Position numbers and translations under genes: made by a program. The notes beneath the pieces are model-generated. The model had not been told where the DNA came from. It saw only the letters and a list, made by a program, of their open reading frames with translations, and did no database searches. 39,913 bases of DNA from Actinomycetota bacterium (lineage in GTDB: Bacteria > Actinomycetota > Thermoleophilia > Miltoncostaeales > Miltoncostaeaceae), in the NCBI GenBank assembly GCA_963169235.1, contig CAUJCX010000008.1, positions 1 through 39,913 of the forward strand, in the 5' to 3' direction. This document shows positions 11,200-18,853 of the stretch, piece after piece (positions within the stretch are counted from its first letter, which is position 1; each line of letters opens with the position of its first letter).

Positions 11200-12912
11200 A
11201 TGACCACCAACGAGCCCGACTGGGTCTCCCGCCTCGCCGACGAGGTCATCGCCGCCGCCCACGCGCGTGATCCCGGCGGGGTCATCGTCTGCGCGTCCGG
11301 CCTGTCCCCGTCCGGTCCCATCCACCTGGGCAACCTGCGCGAGGTGATGGTGCCGCACCTCGTCGCCGACGAGATCCGCTCCCGCGGCGTGGCGTGCGAG
11401 CACATCCTGTCGTGGGACGACTACGATCGCTTCCGCAAGGTCCCGGGCGGCATCGAGGGCCTTGAGGGGTGGGAGCGCCACATCGGCCGCCCGCTCACCA
11501 GCGTGCCGCCGCCCCCGGGCAGCGCGCACGAAAGCTGGGCCGATCACTTCCGCGCGCCCATGCAGGAGGCCATGCGGGTGCTGGGCATCACGGTGCGCGA
11601 GATCTCCCAGACCGAGATGTACACGTCGGGTGCCTACACCGACCGGGTGCTGGTGGCGATGGAGCGGCGCCGCGACATCGACGCGATCCTGGGCCGCTAC
11701 CGCACCAAGGAGGCCCCCGGCGACGAGGACGACGACGCCGACGAGGCGGCGCGCGCGGCGGCGGAGGGGTCCGGCGCCGCGGCCGAGGACGACGGCTCGG
11801 CGGGGGTCGGCTACTACCCGTTCAAGCCGTACTGCGCCGCGTGCGGCACCGACCTCACCACCGTGACGGCGTACGACGACGCCACGACGCGCCTCGACTA
11901 CACGTGCGCGTGCGGCCACGGCAACAGCGTGCTGCTGCGCGACCACCCGCCCGGGAAGCTGGTGTGGAAGGTCGACTGGCCCATGCGCTGGGCGTTCGAG
12001 GGGGTCGACTTCGAGCCCTCCGGCGTCGACCACCAGTCACCGGGGTCGTCGTTCGTGGTGGGCGGCGAGCTGGTGGGGCCGGTGTTCGGCGGCCACCAGC
12101 CCATCGGCCCCATGTACGCGTTCGTGGGCATCAAGGGCATGGCCAAGATGAGCTCGTCCCGCGGCGGCGTCCCCACGCCCGCCGATGCCCTCGACGTGAT
12201 GGAGCCCCCGCTCCTGCGGTGGCTGTACGCGCGCCGCAAGCCCTCCCAGTCGTTCCAGGTGGCGTTCGACGCGGAGATCCAGCGGATGTACGACGAGTGG
12301 GACGCGCTGGGACGGCGCGTCGCCATCGGGCAGGCGCAGTCCGGGGAGGCGGCCGCCCACCGGCGCGCGGCGGCCACCGCCGACGGCCCGCTGCCCGTGA
12401 CGCCGCACCCGCTGCCGTACCGGGCGCTCGCGTCCGTCGTGGACGTCACGGGCGGCGACGAGGATCAGATGCTGCGCATCCTGCGTGGACTCGACCCGGA
12501 CGCTCCACTGGCGTCTCTGGACGACGCCCGCCCGCGGCTCGACCGGGCCCGCGCGTGGGTCGAGCGCTACGTGCCCGAGGACGACCGCACGCACGTCCGC
12601 GAGCAGCCCGACGAAGCGCTCTTGGCATCGCTCGACGACGCGCAGCGCACGGCGCTCACGCTCCTGGCCGACGGCCTCGACGACGACTGGACGCTGGACG
12701 GCCTCACGACGCTGGTGTACGGCGTGCCGAAGCGCATGGCGGGGCTGGACGTGGCCGAGCGGAAGGTGCCGCCCGAGGTGAAGGCCGCGCAGCGCGACCT
12801 GTTCGCGCTGGTGTACCGCCTGGTGGTGGGACGCGACACCGGGCCGCGGCTTCCCACCCTGCTGCTGTGCCTCGATCCCGGCCGCGTGCGGCTGCTGCTG
12901 GGCCGAGGCTGA
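11200..12912 (+). CDS. lysS: Class I lysyl-tRNA synthetase
   Basis: Charges tRNA-Lys, using the class I Rossmann fold rather than the class II fold found in most bacteria. The HIGH-type motif is PIHLGN (residues 40-45) and the KMSKS loop is KMSSS (316-320). A zinc-knuckle pattern is present (Cys212, Cys215, Cys236, Cys238), preceded by an acidic low-complexity insertion at about 170-200. The C-terminal half is helical, as expected for the anticodon-binding domain. At 570 residues it is the length of archaeal-type and actinobacterial LysRS1. The ATG start has no good ribosome binding site nearby. Whether a class II LysRS exists elsewhere in the genome cannot be seen from here. Confidence 0.95.
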   Translation: MTTNEPDWVSRLADEVIAAAHARDPGGVIVCASGLSPSGPIHLGNLREVMVPHLVADEIRSRGVACEHILSWDDYDRFRKVPGGIEGLEGWERHIGRPLTSVPPPPGSAHESWADHFRAPMQEAMRVLGITVREISQTEMYTSGAYTDRVLVAMERRRDIDAILGRYRTKEAPGDEDDDADEAARAAAEGSGAAAEDDGSAGVGYYPFKPYCAACGTDLTTVTAYDDATTRLDYTCACGHGNSVLLRDHPPGKLVWKVDWPMRWAFEGVDFEPSGVDHQSPGSSFVVGGELVGPVFGGHQPIGPMYAFVGIKGMAKMSSSRGGVPTPADALDVMEPPLLRWLYARRKPSQSFQVAFDAEIQRMYDEWDALGRRVAIGQAQSGEAAAHRRAAATADGPLPVTPHPLPYRALASVVDVTGGDEDQMLRILRGLDPDAPLASLDDARPRLDRARAWVERYVPEDDRTHVREQPDEALLASLDDAQRTALTLLADGLDDDWTLDGLTTLVYGVPKRMAGLDVAERKVPPEVKAAQRDLFALVYRLVVGRDTGPRLPTLLLCLDPGRVRLLLGRG

Positions 12913-12956
12913 GGCCCCGGCCCAGAAACCGCACCGACCGCCGCCGCAGCGCGGCC

Positions 12957-14375
12957 TTAGTTCGTAAAGCCCTGGTCGGCGGCCGTCACCGGCTCCAGCA
13001 CCGACGTGGCGACCTGCACCCGCGCCCGCGGGCCGAGGCCCGTGACGCGCACGTCGGCGCGCATCAGGTCGCCGGCCGCGTCACCGGGCACCGCCACGGT
13101 GGACCGCAGGCGCACGGTGGCCCCCGGAGCCAGGCGGGCGATGGTCCACGTGACCCCCGCCCGCGTGACCCGGACGCGGGTGCCCGTGGGACCCGAGGCG
13201 TCGCGCGCCGCGCCGCCGCTCGGCAGCGCCTGGCGCACCACCACGTTGCGCGCCACCCGGCGGGTGGTGTTGCGCACGCTCACGCGGTAGGCGGCGTCGC
13301 GTCCCGGCAGCCCCACCGGCGTGGCGGCGGCCGCCAGCGGCGCGAGCGCGGGCGGCGCGGGGAGCACAGGCGCGGCGGGTGCCGCGGCAGCCTCCGGCGC
13401 GGGGGCGGCATCGCCGGGCGGTGCGGCGATCGGCGACGGCAGGCCCGGCAGCGACAGGTAGCCGCCCCCGCAGTCCTGGAACGTGTGCGTGTCGGAGTCC
13501 TCCAGCGTGGCGGGCACCACCAGGAGCTGGTCCTGCGGGTTCTGGGCCCCCGCGGGCTTCGCCGCCCGCACCGCCCGGGACGTCTGCATGCGCCCGGTCA
13601 CGGTCGCCACGCCGGCCCCGTCCAGCGACAGGCTGGCCTGCGCGGTGCCGGTGGCGTCCAGGGTGACGACGGCCGGTTCCACCGCCGCACCCTCCGACGC
13701 TTCGAGGGCGACCTCGGCGCCGGGCGCGCCCGTGACGGTGACGACGGACGCCACCCCGCGGCAGGTGGGCTGGGGCACGGCGTCGACGTCGAGGGCGTCG
13801 GGAAGGCTTCGACCCTGGGCCTCGGCGCGCAGCTGCGCCACGCGGGCGTTGATGGGGGCGTCGCCGGTGGGGCGCGCGCCCTCGGCCACCTGCCCGGTGA
13901 GCTGCCAGATCGCCACCTGGTACGCCGCGGCCTCCCGCTGCGGGTCGGCGGCGGACGCGATGGCGTCGCGCGAGCGCGCCACCAGCCACCCGGCCTCCCG
14001 GTACCCGGGCGTCGCCAGGGCGGGCGTGTCGGCGGCCGTCTGCAGCTCGACCGGGTAGTCCCGTCCGCTGACCACGTAGTGCGCGGTGTCCACGCAGAAC
14101 CCCTCGGCGACGGCGGGCACGCCCAGCGTCGACGTCGGGGACGTGGTGAACGCGTAGTGGTAACGCGACGGGCGCACGTTGCGCACCGTGCCGTCGGCCA
14201 TCGTGACGGGCACGGCGGTGGGGTAGGCGGGCGAGGCGCCGGTGAGGCGCATGGTGGCGGGCTCGGCGGCGCCGGCGGCGGACGCGGCCGCCGCGCACGC
14301 GGCGAGGGTGATGAACAGACCGGCCGTGGCCGCCCGGCGGGGGCGGGCACGGTGCGGAGCGCGCGACGTGGGCAT
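12957..14375 (-). CDS. Secreted thioester-domain (TQXA-type) surface protein
   Basis: A 472-residue exported protein. The signal peptide (RRAATAGLFITLAACAAAASAAGA) covers about 13-37. Residues 40-200 fit a thioester domain: Cys94 in GFCVD and Gln153 in YQVAIWQLTG are the pair that forms an internal Cys-Gln thioester in Gram-positive adhesins. A beta-rich region (about 205-340) and an Ala/Pro-rich linker follow. Residues 360-455 (YRVSVRNTTRRVARNVVVRQALP) look like a DUF11/CARDB-type immunoglobulin-like domain. There is no LPXTG motif and no C-terminal membrane segment, so anchoring is unexplained. The start ATG has AAGGGAT 8-9 nt upstream. It is downstream of, and on the same strand as, the iron transport operon, with a 148-nt gap. 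Confidence 0.82.
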   Translation of the reverse strand: MPTSRAPHRARPRRAATAGLFITLAACAAAASAAGAAEPATMRLTGASPAYPTAVPVTMADGTVRNVRPSRYHYAFTTSPTSTLGVPAVAEGFCVDTAHYVVSGRDYPVELQTAADTPALATPGYREAGWLVARSRDAIASAADPQREAAAYQVAIWQLTGQVAEGARPTGDAPINARVAQLRAEAQGRSLPDALDVDAVPQPTCRGVASVVTVTGAPGAEVALEASEGAAVEPAVVTLDATGTAQASLSLDGAGVATVTGRMQTSRAVRAAKPAGAQNPQDQLLVVPATLEDSDTHTFQDCGGGYLSLPGLPSPIAAPPGDAAPAPEAAAAPAAPVLPAPPALAPLAAAATPVGLPGRDAAYRVSVRNTTRRVARNVVVRQALPSGGAARDASGPTGTRVRVTRAGVTWTIARLAPGATVRLRSTVAVPGDAAGDLMRADVRVTGLGPRARVQVATSVLEPVTAADQGFTN

Positions 14376-14505
14376 CGTCGGCAATCCCTTCGTGGACAGC
14401 GTGGGCACTTGTTCTTTCCACGATCGGCCGCCGCCCGCGCGCGGCGCTCCGTCGCCGTGCGCGAGATGGTGGGCGGGGCGCGTAGCGCATGCGCCACCGG
14501 CGCTC

Positions 14506-14524
14506 ACGCCCCCCGCGGGGGCGT
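14506..14524. terminator. GC hairpin at the end of the iron transport operon
   Basis: ACGCCCC (14506-14512) pairs with GGGGCGT (14518-14524), overlapping the permease stop codon on the minus strand. There is no T-run. It may slow or stop transcription before the thioester-protein gene. Confidence 0.35.
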
Positions 14525-16131
14525 CAGCCGCCGGGAGGCGACGACGGATGCCGCGCGAGCACGTGCTCGCGGACCGCCAGCCAGATGAACGGCAGCGACA
14601 GCACCATCAGCGTCACGGCGGCGACGGCGGCCGCTCCGTACGCCCCCACGGTGGTCTTGCGCCACACCTCGGTCGCCAGCGTGCGCGCGCCGGTGGGCAG
14701 CAGCAGCGCCGTGGCGGGCAGCTCCTTCACCACCGACAAGAACACCAGCACGGCCGACGCCGCCAGCCCGGGGCGCATCTGGGGCAGCGTCACCGCGCCG
14801 AACACCCGCAGGGGCGAGCGGCCCAGCACGCGCGCGGCCTCCTCGGTGCGGGGGCTCACGGTGGACAGCGCCGTGCCCACCCCCGACAGCGCCTCGGCAA
14901 AGAAGCGGATGACGTAGGCCGCCACCAGCAGCGGGAACGTCTGGTAGAGCCAGGGCAGATAGCGCGCCCCGATGAACACCAGCGCCAGGCCGACGACGAT
15001 GCCGGGGAGCGCGTTGGCGCCGTATCCGGCCCGTTCGAGGAGCATCGTCCACCGCCGCGGGTGACGCTGGGCCAGGTACGTCACGGGCACGGCGGCGACG
15101 GTCGCGATGACGGCCGCCACGGCGGCCAGCGCCAGCGACGTGACCCCGGCGCGCCACGGCACGCTGTCGAGCGTGCCGTGGCCGGCCGCGCGCGCGATCC
15201 AGTACGTCATCACCGCGAGCGGCGTCACCACGAACAGACACGTCAGTGCGGCGAGCCAGGCCACCGCCAGAGGCGTGAAGCGGCCCAGCGGGATCGGCGT
15301 GGGCGTCCGGCGGGCTCCGGGTCCCACCTGGACGGCGTCGGCACCGCGTGAACGGGTCTCGGCGACCAGGAGCAGCACGGCCAGCGCGACGAGCACCAGG
15401 CCCAGCACGGCCGCGGGAGTGCGGTCGAACCCCGCCTCGTACCGCGTGAAGATGGCGCGCGTGATGGTGGTGTAACGCATCAGCGCCACGGCCCCGAAGT
15501 CGGACACGGCGTACAGGGCGGCCAGCAGCGCCCCCGCCGCCAGCGCGCGACGCAGCTGCGGCAGCGACGCCGCGACGAACGCCCCCAGGGGGCCGCGCCC
15601 CAGCACGCGGGCGGCCTCCTCCTGCGCCGGGTCGATGCGCCGCAGGGCCGCGGCGGTCAGCAGGTACACGTACGGGGCGGTCGACGCCACCACCGCCAGC
15701 GTGGCTCCCCAGTACCCCTCCAGGCGGGGGACGGGGCCGATGCCCAGGGGCGCGAGCACGCGCGAGGCCAGCCCACTTGTGCCGGTCGCCCCGGCGAGCG
15801 CCAGGGCCGCCACGAAGCTGGGCATCGCCAGCGGCAGCACGGCCATGACGGCCCAGAACCTGCGCCACGGCAGCTCGGTGCGTGCCACCAGCCACGCCGT
15901 GGACGCGCCCACCAGTACCGACCCGGCGGCCACGCCGACCAGCAGCGTCAGCGTGCGCCACATGGTCTCCCACGTGGTGCGCGCGCCCATCACGCCCCAT
16001 GCCTCGCCCACGCCCGCCCGGTACGCGAGGTACGCCGGCGGCACGGCCAGGAACGCCACGGGGACGAGCGCCGCCAGCACCAGGGCCGGCGACGGGCGAC
16101 CGGGGCGGCCGCGCCGCCCCCGGCCGCGCAT
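14524..16131 (-). CDS. Iron(III)-type ABC importer permease (FbpB/SfuB-like, fused two-domain)
   Basis: Inner-membrane permease of 535 residues with two tandem BPD_transp_1 halves, the usual form for ferric-iron (FbpB/SfuB) and related thiamine/phosphonate importers. About 12 hydrophobic segments are visible. Each half has an EAA-type loop: EEAARVLGRGPLGAFVAASLPQLRRAL in the first and EEAARVLGRSPLRVFGAVTLPQMRPGL in the second. The ATG at 16131 is preferred over the GTG one codon earlier because AAGG, overlapping the previous stop, is well placed. It is the last gene of a minus-strand operon whose order is ATPase, binding protein, permease, with 5-50 nt gaps. Confidence 0.92.
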   Translation of the reverse strand: MRGRGRRGRPGRPSPALVLAALVPVAFLAVPPAYLAYRAGVGEAWGVMGARTTWETMWRTLTLLVGVAAGSVLVGASTAWLVARTELPWRRFWAVMAVLPLAMPSFVAALALAGATGTSGLASRVLAPLGIGPVPRLEGYWGATLAVVASTAPYVYLLTAAALRRIDPAQEEAARVLGRGPLGAFVAASLPQLRRALAAGALLAALYAVSDFGAVALMRYTTITRAIFTRYEAGFDRTPAAVLGLVLVALAVLLLVAETRSRGADAVQVGPGARRTPTPIPLGRFTPLAVAWLAALTCLFVVTPLAVMTYWIARAAGHGTLDSVPWRAGVTSLALAAVAAVIATVAAVPVTYLAQRHPRRWTMLLERAGYGANALPGIVVGLALVFIGARYLPWLYQTFPLLVAAYVIRFFAEALSGVGTALSTVSPRTEEAARVLGRSPLRVFGAVTLPQMRPGLAASAVLVFLSVVKELPATALLLPTGARTLATEVWRKTTVGAYGAAAVAAVTLMVLSLPFIWLAVREHVLARHPSSPPGG

Positions 16132-16138
16132 CACGACC

Positions 16139-17194
16139 TTACGAGGTAAGGCCGACCTCGGTGATCATCTCCAGCGTCGCCTTCTCCTCCGACCCCAGCT
16201 TGCTGAGCGGCTGCGACTCGCCTACCAGGGTGTCGAGCGGGGGGAGGCCCTTCGCGGGCTGCACGCCCGGCACCAGCGGGTACTCGTTCTCCTCCGCCTC
16301 GGTCGCGTAGAACCTCTGGCCGTCCTGCGACAGCAGGAAGTCGACCAGCTTCGTGGCGCCGTCCGTGTTCTTGGCCGTGCTCAGCACGCCCGCGCCCGCC
16401 ACGTTCACCAGCGACCCGGGGTCACCGGCGGCCAGGAACTTGTTCTCCACGGCGGCGTCGGGGCGCTCCTTCTTCACCAGGGCGAGGTAGTAGTGGTTGA
16501 CGAGGCCCAGGTCCACCTCGCCGTCGGCGATGGCCTCGACGATGGGGCGGTTGCCCTCGAACGTCTTCACGCCGTTGGCCTTCAGGTCGGCCAGGAACTT
16601 CTTGGCGCGGTCGTCACCCACCTTCAGCCGCAGCGCGGTGACGAAGGCCTGGAACGACGCGTTGGTGGGGGCGATGCCCAGGCGCGCGGCGTACTTGGGC
16701 TGCGAGTACGCCAGCACGTCGTCGGGCAGCTCGTCCGCGCGGTACGCCTTGGTGCCGAACGCGACCACGCGCACGCGGCCGGACGTGCCCACCCAGCGGC
16801 CGTCGGGGTCGCGGAACGAGGCCTTCACGCGGTTGAGCGTCGCGTCGGGCAGGGGGGAGAGGCGATCGGAGACCGATCCCAGGGCGCCCGCGTCCTGGCT
16901 GAAGAACACGTCGGCCGGGGAGCCGTCGCCTTCCTCGGCGATCTGGGCGGCCATCTCGGCGCTCTTGCCGTAGCGGACCTCCACCTGGATGCCCGTGGCA
17001 TCGGTGAACTTGGTGAACAGGGGCGCGACGATCTCCTCCTCGCGGCCCGAGTAGACCACCAGCTTGGCGTCGCCGGAGGCCGAATCGGAGTCCCCGCAGC
17101 CCGCCGCCGCGAGGGCGGCCACCACGGCGAGGCCGCCGGCAGCGGCGCCACGGGACGTGAGACGACCTCCGGCCGCTCGGATGCGATCCATCAT
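16139..17194 (-). CDS. Iron(III)-type ABC importer binding lipoprotein (FbpA-like)
   Basis: Extracellular solute-binding lipoprotein, 351 residues. A signal peptide ends in lipobox LAAAGC with Cys33. The mature protein begins AKLVVYSGREEEIVAPLFTKFTDATGIQV, the typical opening of Fe3+-binding FbpA/FutA proteins. The conserved NHYYLAL motif carries the Tyr-Tyr pair that ligates iron in FbpA. DVFFSQDAGALG and the SQDGQRFY region near the end also fit. Two ATG codons (17194, 17191) are in tandem, with AGAAAGG upstream. A half-site AGGTTAG (minus strand 17208-17202), like half of a DtxR/IdeR iron box, overlaps that ribosome-binding region. The metal specificity is inferred from family and operon. 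Confidence 0.92.
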   Translation of the reverse strand: MMDRIRAAGGRLTSRGAAAGGLAVVAALAAAGCGDSDSASGDAKLVVYSGREEEIVAPLFTKFTDATGIQVEVRYGKSAEMAAQIAEEGDGSPADVFFSQDAGALGSVSDRLSPLPDATLNRVKASFRDPDGRWVGTSGRVRVVAFGTKAYRADELPDDVLAYSQPKYAARLGIAPTNASFQAFVTALRLKVGDDRAKKFLADLKANGVKTFEGNRPIVEAIADGEVDLGLVNHYYLALVKKERPDAAVENKFLAAGDPGSLVNVAGAGVLSTAKNTDGATKLVDFLLSQDGQRFYATEAEENEYPLVPGVQPAKGLPPLDTLVGESQPLSKLGSEEKATLEMITEVGLTS

Positions 17195-17240
17195 GTGGGT
17201 ACTAACCTTTCTTCGTGGGATCCCGTTCGTGGGCCCGGTG

Positions 17241-18251
17241 TCAACGATCCTGCGAACGGGCGAACACCGCGACCGGTGCCCGGTGTGGCTCCACGGCCAC
17301 ACGGGCGCCGATCGCGACGGACTCGGTGGAGGGGCGCTGAGCGCACACCACGGTGCCGTCGGGCAGGCGCACCCGGTACAGCACGTCGTGGCCTCGGAAC
17401 TCGCGCCCGACCACGGTGCACGCGCCGTCGTCGGTGGGGCGCAGCACGATCATCTCGGGACGGATCAACGCCTCCACGGGGCACCCGTGGGCGGCGGGCA
17501 CCGCCAGCGGGAACGCGCCGACGGGCGTGTCCACCCCGGCCCCGTCGACCGTGCCCGGCAGGAAGTTGCCGGGGCCGACGAAGCGGGCCGCCCAGCGATC
17601 GGTGGGCGTCAGGTAGAGGTCCTCGGGGGCGCCGCACTGCACGACGCGTCCGTCCATCATCAGCGCCACGCGGTCGGACAGCGAGAACGCCTCCTCACGG
17701 TCGTGCGTCACCAGCAGCACGGTGGTGCCGGCGGCCCGCAGCAGGCGGACGATGTCGTCGCGGACCGTCTCGCGCATCACGGCATCGACGCTGGACCACG
17801 GCTCGTCCAGCAGCATCACGTGCGGCGACGGGGCCAGCGCCCGGGCCAGCGCGACGCGCTGCTGCTGGCCGCCCGACAACTGGGACGGCAGCCGCGCGTC
17901 GAGGCCCTCCAGACCGACCAGCGCCATCACCTCGGCGACGCGCTGGGCGCGCTGGGCCTTCGCGACGCCGAAGCCGATGTTCGCGGCGACGGTGCGGTGG
18001 GGGAAGAGGGCGTGTTCCTGGAACACCATGCCCACGCGGCGATGCTCGGGTGCCACCCACGTGTCGTCATCGGCGACGGTGCGACCGGCGATGGCGATGG
18101 ATCCCGCGTCGGGCTGGGCGAACCCGCAGATGAGCCGCAGCAGCGTGGTCTTGCCGCATCCGGACGGGCCCAGCAGCGCTACGACCTCGCCGGGAGCAAG
18201 CGCCAGGTCGACTCCTGCGAGCGCAGCGGTGGTACCGAACTGCTTGTGCAC
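17241..18251 (-). CDS. Iron(III)-type ABC importer ATPase (FbpC-like)
   Basis: ATPase of the importer, 336 residues from the first standard start codon. Walker A is GPSGCGKTT, the Q-loop is in VFQEHALFPHRTV, the signature is LSGGQQQRVALARAL, Walker B is VMLLDEPWSSVD, and the H-loop is THDREEA. A TOBE-like C-terminal domain (about 235-330) is typical of FbpC/PotA proteins. The start is odd. The frame is open upstream and encodes AIEIRDV, the expected first beta-strand, but the only standard start (GTG 18251) falls after it. A GAGGA (minus strand 18293-18289) sits before an in-frame ATC at 18284, which may be the real start. First gene of the operon, directly behind the palindrome at 18299. Confidence 0.92.
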   Translation of the reverse strand: MHKQFGTTAALAGVDLALAPGEVVALLGPSGCGKTTLLRLICGFAQPDAGSIAIAGRTVADDDTWVAPEHRRVGMVFQEHALFPHRTVAANIGFGVAKAQRAQRVAEVMALVGLEGLDARLPSQLSGGQQQRVALARALAPSPHVMLLDEPWSSVDAVMRETVRDDIVRLLRAAGTTVLLVTHDREEAFSLSDRVALMMDGRVVQCGAPEDLYLTPTDRWAARFVGPGNFLPGTVDGAGVDTPVGAFPLAVPAAHGCPVEALIRPEMIVLRPTDDGACTVVGREFRGHDVLYRVRLPDGTVVCAQRPSTESVAIGARVAVEPHRAPVAVFARSQDR

Positions 18252-18298
18252 GTCGCGGATCTCGATGGCGGTGCCGGGGCGGATGGCGTCCTCGCGGG

Positions 18299-18312
18299 TT
18301 AGGTGGACCTAA
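18299..18312. promoter_or_regulatory. TTAGGT-GG-ACCTAA palindrome, candidate metalloregulator operator
   Basis: Perfect 6-bp inverted repeat with a 2-bp centre, just upstream of the iron transport operon. The arms equal the outer arms of the DtxR/IdeR consensus (TTAGGT and ACCTAA), but the consensus spacing between them is 7, not 2. A DtxR-family regulator is therefore likely but not certain. It would lie at or just after the transcription start. Confidence 0.6.
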
Positions 18313-18320
18313 GCTCCGTG

Positions 18321-18349
18321 GGAGGCTATCGATCGGTCGCTATTGCGGC
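18321..18349 (-). promoter_or_regulatory. Possible promoter of the iron transport operon
   Basis: On the minus strand, TTGCCG and TAGCCT are separated by 17 nt, and the palindrome begins about 9 nt downstream. Binding of a repressor there would block transcription initiation or clearance. The hexamers are weak matches. Confidence 0.3.
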
Positions 18350-18379
18350 AACCGTGGTTACCGAAACAAGGGACCGCCG

Positions 18380-18853
18380 TCAGGCGCGCGACTCGTCCAG
18401 GGGGAGGGCCCGCTCGAACACGATGCGGTCGTCGCCGGGGCCCATGTAGTCGGGGTGCAGCGTGCCGACGAAGCCCAGGGCCTCGTGGAAGCCGACGGAG
18501 CCCACCCGCCGCGGCTGCGCCAGGGCCCGGATGCGCGTGCAGCCCCGCGCGTGCATCGCCCGGCCGAAATCGCGGTAGAGGCGCGCACCGAGACCGCCTC
18601 CCCGCAGGGCGGGGTCGACGACGTGGAAGTGCACGTACGCAAGGTCGGGTTCGGCGGCGCTGGGCAGGCCCAGGAGCAGGCCCGCCATCGTCTCGTTCCG
18701 GCCGATCCAGACCCCGTACGGCCCGAGCTGGTCGAAGAACAGGCGATGCATCGTGAGGCCCACCGGGTGACCGAACCAGTCGTCGGCGACGCGGCGGGCG
18801 GCGGCGTAGTCGTCGGCCACCAGGGGGCGGGTGGTGAAGTCGGCCGCGGTCAT
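18380..18853 (-). CDS. GNAT-family N-acetyltransferase
   Basis: A 157-residue acetyl-CoA-dependent acyltransferase of the GNAT fold. It begins TTRPLVADDYAAARRVADDWFG (beta1-alpha1). YVHFHVVDPALRGGGLGARLYRDF (about 90-112) is motif A, with the acetyl-CoA pyrophosphate loop RGGGLG. The chain ends VGFHEALGFVGT, the usual motif B. The substrate cannot be told; close family members act on small molecules, antibiotics or protein N-termini. The ATG at 18853 is chosen because the upstream in-frame sequence is Arg/Pro-rich noise. It is on the same strand as the iron operon but ends 67 nt before its operator, so it is probably a separate unit. Confidence 0.85.
   Translation of the reverse strand: MTAADFTTRPLVADDYAAARRVADDWFGHPVGLTMHRLFFDQLGPYGVWIGRNETMAGLLLGLPSAAEPDLAYVHFHVVDPALRGGGLGARLYRDFGRAMHARGCTRIRALAQPRRVGSVGFHEALGFVGTLHPDYMGPGDDRIVFERALPLDESRA

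Follow-up and report, generated by a model that had tools for sequence, protein, structure and literature searches.

The thioester domain (TED) is well known, and class II TEDs are defined by a beta-sandwich inserted after helix 3 and before the last hairpin (PMC6194298). Solved TEDs have their bond-forming Gln on a late strand, within a weak PhiQzetaPhiPhi motif of its own, and the Gln and Trp of a helix motif, TQxxPhiW, are both dispensable (PMC4450167); the Cys-Gln spacing is 195, 171 and 204 residues in BaTIE, SaTIE and EfmTIE86, respectively (PMC6194298). The lack of a sortase signal in an unanchored class II TED adhesin has a precedent in TIEpLS20, which is encoded by the Bacillus subtilis plasmid pLS20 and acts between bacteria independently of sortase; its function is abolished by the Cys68Ser substitution, its modelled Cys-Gln spacing is 188 residues, and its anchoring is given as unknown (PMC8092201). 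An LPXTG sorting signal comprises the motif, a membrane helix and a basic cluster (PMC8092201). DUF11 domains, renamed CLIPPER, contain an isopeptide bond, for which structure 9IFR shows the triad Lys-Asp-Asn; some DUF11 domains are described as lacking this triad (PMC12617251).

The genome of a member of the Thermoleophilia encodes a protein of this type at positions 12957..14375 (minus strand) of the window, i.e. the whole stretch of 39,913 nucleotides that was analysed. The gene is real: its open reading frame begins at 14375 with an ATG codon, and the product of 472 amino acids (P0001) is classified through the reading frame, Pfam and a fold search as an exported class II TED protein. A signal peptide is predicted for residues 1-35 (14271..14375, minus strand, as are all features of the protein given below), with the hydropathy maximum at residues 16-37 and an approximate cleavage site near AAGAA, placed by eye. 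An earlier note, made from the letters alone, had pointed to the motifs GFCVD (with Cys94) and YQVAIW (with Gln153 and Trp157) and to a DUF11-like C-terminal domain; both motifs are present in the translation, and Pfam assigns DUF11 (PF01345) with 36.7 bits against a gathering threshold of 24.6 (E 6e-9). An Ala/Pro-rich linker (residues 303-356; 13308..13469), recognized from the sequence, precedes this domain. The Pfam TED model (PF08341) matches residues 93-186 with 13.9 bits, which is below its cut-off of 22 (a paralogue, L001, passes narrowly with 22.1 bits), and the assignment to the TEDs thus rests on fold and residues.

The protein had no NCBIfam match above cut-off, no Rfam match was obtained for positions 12500-18400 at the gathering threshold, no consensus promoters or terminators were found in 12800-14700, and the plasmid records searched gave no match. 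The low lysine content of the protein (1 in 472) was considered as a protection against self-reaction; this idea was dropped because the neighbouring GNAT protein (0) and permease (0.37%) are also poor in lysine.

A sequence-profile search of the PDB picked up the Ig-like insert alone (intimin, invasin), apart from a single weak match to something unrelated; a fold search was needed. The AlphaFold2 model (residues 36-310; four sequences) is of moderate confidence (pLDDT 74.5, pTM 0.65) and presents, in this order, the strand carrying Cys94 (model strand 54-60), three helices, an Ig-like sandwich and a long hairpin, with Gln281 placed just before the last strand of the hairpin. The sandwich (model strands 161-216, residues 196-251; 13623..13790), for which the intimin/invasin Ig matches were obtained, lies between helix 138-151 and hairpin 221-265 of the model, which is the position of the class II insert (PMC6194298). 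Foldseek against the PDB placed class II TEDs in the first four ranks (6fwy_A, 4.0e-9; 6fwy_C, 7.6e-9; 6fwv_B, 5.3e-7; 6fwv_A, 1.3e-6). VIA-align ranked 6fwv_B (BaTIE) first (Z 13.1, rmsd 3.3, 226 aligned), and gave Z 10.9 for 6fwy_C (rmsd 5.0, 233 aligned), Z 10.4 for 6fx6 (rmsd 5.8, 222 aligned) and lower ranks to class I TEDs (Z 8.4-9.9 over 146-158 residues), although several unrelated Ig domains reach Z 10-11 on the sandwich alone. The head of the protein, as modelled, has the class II TED fold. The description as a thioester-domain protein in the earlier note is thus borne out, both by the match of the predicted fold to solved TEDs and by the recovery of 32 homologues.

These homologues were collected with a profile built from eight TED regions. 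Among 399 genomes of the class, the profile gave 34 matches in 14 genomes, 12 of them from the family of the window; two matches from outside this family (L037, L038) were weak, covered the Ig-like sandwich region only and were left out. A search of 296 genomes of the phylum gave matches in three genomes, which again belong to this family. The survey of Thermoleophilia genomes for homologues and their C-termini, as the earlier note had proposed, hence provided 32 members from 12 of the 399 genomes (29 at first; L143, L148 and L149 were added later) with 29 visible C-terminal ends; L093 and L051 (contig ends) and L036 (C-terminus) were omitted from counts that need the missing parts. The genome of the window itself (2.94 Mb, 65 contigs, 96% complete) encodes two paralogues, L001/L050 on contig C35 and L002/L027 on C40, and its host is of the free-living type, as had been presumed. 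One member, L036 (G010:C132), lies in an open frame of 1817 amino acids, in which repeats follow the TED and a long open stretch precedes the apparent signal peptide.

Cys94 (14094..14096) is retained in 31/32 homologues, and its surroundings, FCVD, agree with the TED motif [YFL]C-hydrophobic-hydrophilic, which upholds the earlier designation of Cys94 as the (predicted) thioester Cys. As its partner the earlier note had named Gln153, which lies in Gln153-Trp157 (13905..13919), recognized through the literature motif and the alignment as the TQxxPhiW helix motif. A second candidate is Gln281 (13533..13535). Its spacing of 187 residues from Cys94 matches the class II examples (195, 171 and 204 residues, and 188 in the TIEpLS20 model), and its surroundings, PQDQL, fit the weak PhiQzetaPhiPhi motif only loosely. 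Each of the two Gln residues is conserved in 30/31 of the members that reach the respective column, and the exceptions differ: L046 alone lacks Cys94 (Ala), and it alone lacks Gln281 (Glu), while it retains Gln153 and Trp157; L050, the only exception at Gln153 (Ala), retains both Cys94 and Gln281. The predicted thioester partner of Cys94 is almost certainly Gln281. Because each exception is a single protein, and L046, the one case of co-loss, sits on a longish branch, the loss pattern lends support but does not decide the matter. A bond between Cys94 and Gln153 appears very improbable: its conservation and the solved TEDs, in which the side chain of the helix Gln adjoins the bond (PMC4450167, PMC6194298), would fit such a pair, but the literature places this Gln in the dispensable helix motif (PMC4450167), and the residues in L050 and L046 are lost in the reverse combinations. 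Homologues without Gln153, which the earlier note had named as a refuting observation, are represented by L050; as this protein keeps Cys94 and Gln281, it refutes the choice of Gln153 and not the thioester itself.

The TED fold might also no longer form a thioester and serve as a binding or structural domain only. The sub-threshold Pfam TED score would be in line with this, as would L046, which is intact despite the loss of both bond residues and hence indicates that the fold can persist bond-free. For the window protein we regard it as rather unlikely, given that both Cys94 and Gln281 persist throughout the four aligned members of its clade, which are 41-58% identical to this protein.

Two further cysteines, Cys205 at the start of the sandwich (13761..13763) and Cys302 at the end of the last strand (13470..13472), occur together in 12 of 28 members, are both absent from 16, and are found singly in none; a disulfide between them is likely from this co-occurrence. 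The pattern needs three changes on the tree, of which supported branches force only one, so that independence is limited.

The C-terminal DUF11 (CLIPPER) domain (residues 357-437; 13065..13307) carries A-Q-R in place of the Lys-Asp-Asn isopeptide triad, and a stalk with an intact triad, as expected of sortase-anchored TIE proteins, is thus not found in the window protein. The triad is present in 24/30 homologues; none of the four members of the window clade has it, and they read A-Q-R, A-Q-R, L-Q-R and M-Q-R at the three columns. Two other proteins, L034 and L048, also lack the triad and have retained the C-terminal tail described below, so the losses of triad and tail are not strictly coupled; a tree that joins the window clade with L034/L048 was not rejected (p-AU 0.18). 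L034 and L048 are neighbouring TED genes of one relative (G014:C272), and both keep the PAVTG end. As read from the alignment, the window clade has lost both the triad and the tail and has kept the thioester pair.

No LPXTG motif was seen in the window protein, and the best 19-residue Kyte-Doolittle mean within its last 120 residues is 0.71, compared to 1.74 in the signal peptide; the set of features of a sortase anchor (LPXTG, membrane helix, basic tail) is absent, with no C-terminal hydrophobic segment, in agreement with the earlier note, which had described the protein as having neither sortase signal nor membrane anchor. The relatives are also without a C-terminal membrane helix: 25 of the 29 visible C-termini carry a bare tail, [PA][ADS]V[TA][GAS], directly before the stop codon (exactly PAVTG in 18 of the 25). 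The remaining four ends are those of the window clade, which read EQGF (two), DQGF and, in the window protein, DQGFTN (tail VTAADQGFTN, 12960..12989), i.e. the window protein does not end in P-x-V-T-G. On the tree, the tail changes once, at the window clade (SH-aLRT 99-100; first 26 visible ends). A fifth C-terminus of this kind, reading EQGF, was found at G022:C260, and the conservation of the [DE]QGF end within the clade suggests that it has some role. In a second model, the tail of the window protein has a pLDDT below 50, as expected for a free end.

The window protein might be a tethered adhesin like its paralogues, a covalent adhesin that stays at the surface on its stalk, with [DE]QGF(TN) as a second form of the retention signal that is peculiar to its clade. 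The conservation of this end in the four aligned clade members and at G022:C260, and the conserved tail that paralogues of the same architecture carry at the equivalent place, argue for such a signal. Against it, [DE]QGF did not emerge as a genome-wide tag, with 8 matches in 41 family genomes (four of them orthologue ends, three reading TGG rather than a stop codon, and one, L144, following a four-residue frame), and the stalk triad is lost; on balance we consider a tethered protein unlikely, though by no means negligible.

Another route of attachment would be N-terminal lipidation. The signal peptide contains a lipobox-like LAAC with Cys27 (14295..14297), located in the hydrophobic segment, which we take to fit the textbook lipobox, and cleavage before Cys27 would make the protein a lipoprotein. 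The orthologues L041, L042, L043 and L093 have no Cys at this place, and lipidation would leave the thioester head buried against the membrane, an argument also made for TIEpLS20 (PMC8092201). Lipidation therefore seems improbable; Cys27 could anchor the window protein alone.

The PAVTG tail is not confined to the TED proteins. Of the 11 DUF11 matches in the window's own genome, nine end in -VTG (six PAVTG, and PRVTG, GGVTG and VAVTG); the other two are the window protein and L107, a different, apparently non-secreted protein. A loose pattern (P-x-V-T-G followed by TRR) matched 361/399 class genomes and was too noisy; it was replaced by the strict DNA pattern PAVTG-TGA, which was run over 199 class genomes with a reversed-pattern control. 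In the 42 genomes of the family, the strict pattern gave 37 matches in 14 genomes against one for the control, and in the other 157 class genomes 17 matches against 11, which is background level. When 14 tag loci of the family (one per genome) were inspected by eye, 11 read as secreted domain proteins, one was a contig-end fragment and two seemed non-coding; none of the 16 loci examined in other families (of 17) looked like a secreted domain protein. The tag is not merely the end of the DUF11 domain, as L133 (minus strand, G030) is a tagged Vgb-lyase-type propeller without DUF11. Virginiamycin B lyase-type propellers ending in PAVTG or PRVTG were observed at two loci, L133 and L013. In the literature covered (subscription papers and preprints lay outside its scope), PAVTG was not mentioned as a sorting motif and no such tail was described, and nothing was found that pairs DUF11 with a 'C-terminal sorting signal' or Thermoleophilia with sortase. 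From its distribution, it is plausible that the PAVTG tail is a new sorting signal.

Recognition of PAVTG by a sortase was examined as a candidate explanation and rejected. Sortase (PF04203) is matched in 11/41 family genomes, in 9/12 of the genomes with TED proteins and in 8/14 of the family genomes with the strict tag pattern, and two genomes, G012 (one contig, 99% complete) and G025 (three contigs, 100%), encode tagged TED proteins and have no PF04203 match. A diverged sortase may act on PAVTG. A sortase-like domain was also observed at the C-terminus of long tandem-repeat proteins, an unusual sortase architecture (L004:1495-3372, minus strand, on contig C20 of the window's own genome; L108, L109, L111, L113, L114).

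The TED gene is located directly downstream of, and on the same strand as, an ABC-transporter operon (window 14524-18251: ATPase, binding protein, two-domain permease), which lies between the TED gene and a GNAT gene; on its other side the TED gene adjoins a LysS gene. The earlier note had placed the protein beside an iron importer. The operon does adjoin the gene in the window; the iron specificity is not established, since the nearest NCBIfam models among the matches listed are those for 2-aminoethylphosphonate and related transporters, all below cut-off. The protein might belong to this transporter system and capture a metal or another ligand at the surface, as the gene order would allow. 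Such a role is hardly credible, given the unsettled substrate and given that tblastn with the three transporter proteins found no match in the orthologue neighbourhoods L089, L090 and L091; the L089 orthologue is flanked by the LysS and GNAT genes, and in the relative G001 the TED gene has LysS on one side and the GNAT gene known from the window on the other, with the ABC operon absent.

Our preferred reading, to which we assign a probability of about two in three, is that the window protein is a covalently acting class II TED protein (predicted bond Cys94-Gln281) that is now released or loosely held. It builds on computed elements (fold, residue conservation, loss pattern and tail distribution), from which we infer bond formation, target, tail function and, through the absences noted, release. 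The signal peptide would export the protein, and the head (three helices and a beta-barrel, with the Ig-like sandwich inserted before the last hairpin) would close an internal thioester on folding, joining Cys94, in an early strand, to Gln281, in the last one. This thioester would be spent in a single reaction with an amine, as a rule that of a Lys side chain, which yields an amide bond to the target; candidate targets are amines on neighbouring cells, on the matrix or on sister proteins. In the relatives, the same head would be carried by a DUF11/CLIPPER stalk with a Lys-Asn isopeptide bond and would be held at the surface through PAVTG-COOH, by a route other than LPXTG plus membrane helix. 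In the window clade, with both stalk triad and tail lost, the protein would no longer bear load as a cell-wall tether and would be released or loosely held.

A wider reading is offered tentatively, as it has somewhat less than even odds: a family of the Thermoleophilia would place secreted proteins at the surface by means of a helix-less PAVTG-COOH tag, in some genomes without PF04203, and the window clade would have lost or swapped this tag, turning a tethered adhesin into a released covalent label. If PAVTG is indeed a sorting tag, it would represent a surface-protein signal that needs no membrane helix, and would be relevant to the way in which unanchored TED adhesins (TIEpLS20, for example) stay attached. 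What is new here is the lineage, the assignment of the bonding residue, the naturally occurring variants and a bare tail specific to this lineage. Class II thioester adhesins, which had been described in pathogens and on a conjugative plasmid, are hereby extended to Thermoleophilia of a free-living type, in which they probably serve cell-cell or matrix contact. With L046, L050 and the window clade as natural losses, tests of the bond assignment and of what the stalk bond does become possible.

GlyGly-CTERM and MYXO-CTERM are tripartite, with the motif followed by a membrane helix and then by basic residues. PAVTG resembles these signals and LPXTG in being a short C-terminal motif on otherwise unlike secreted proteins of one lineage; it differs in being the absolute end of the protein, with nothing beyond. 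With DUF11/CLIPPER (PF01345, 9IFR; PMC12617251), the family shares the C-terminal domain, and the triad in 24/30 homologues; the window clade differs in having none of the three triad residues. BaTIE (6FWV), EfmTIE86 (6FWY) and SaTIE (6FX6) are alike in fold, in the sandwich before the last hairpin, and in the early-strand Cys and last-strand Gln at a spacing of 171-204 residues; they are sortase-anchored proteins with CnaB isopeptide stalks, whereas the window protein has a single triad-less DUF11 domain, no sortase signal and a Thermoleophilia host. TIEpLS20, which is reported without a lipobox (PMC8092201), is likewise a class II TED protein without sortase signal and has a near-identical Cys-Gln spacing; it is a protein of 778 amino acids with a CnaB-type stalk, encoded in a conjugation operon, whereas the gene of the window protein adjoins a LysS gene and not conjugation genes.
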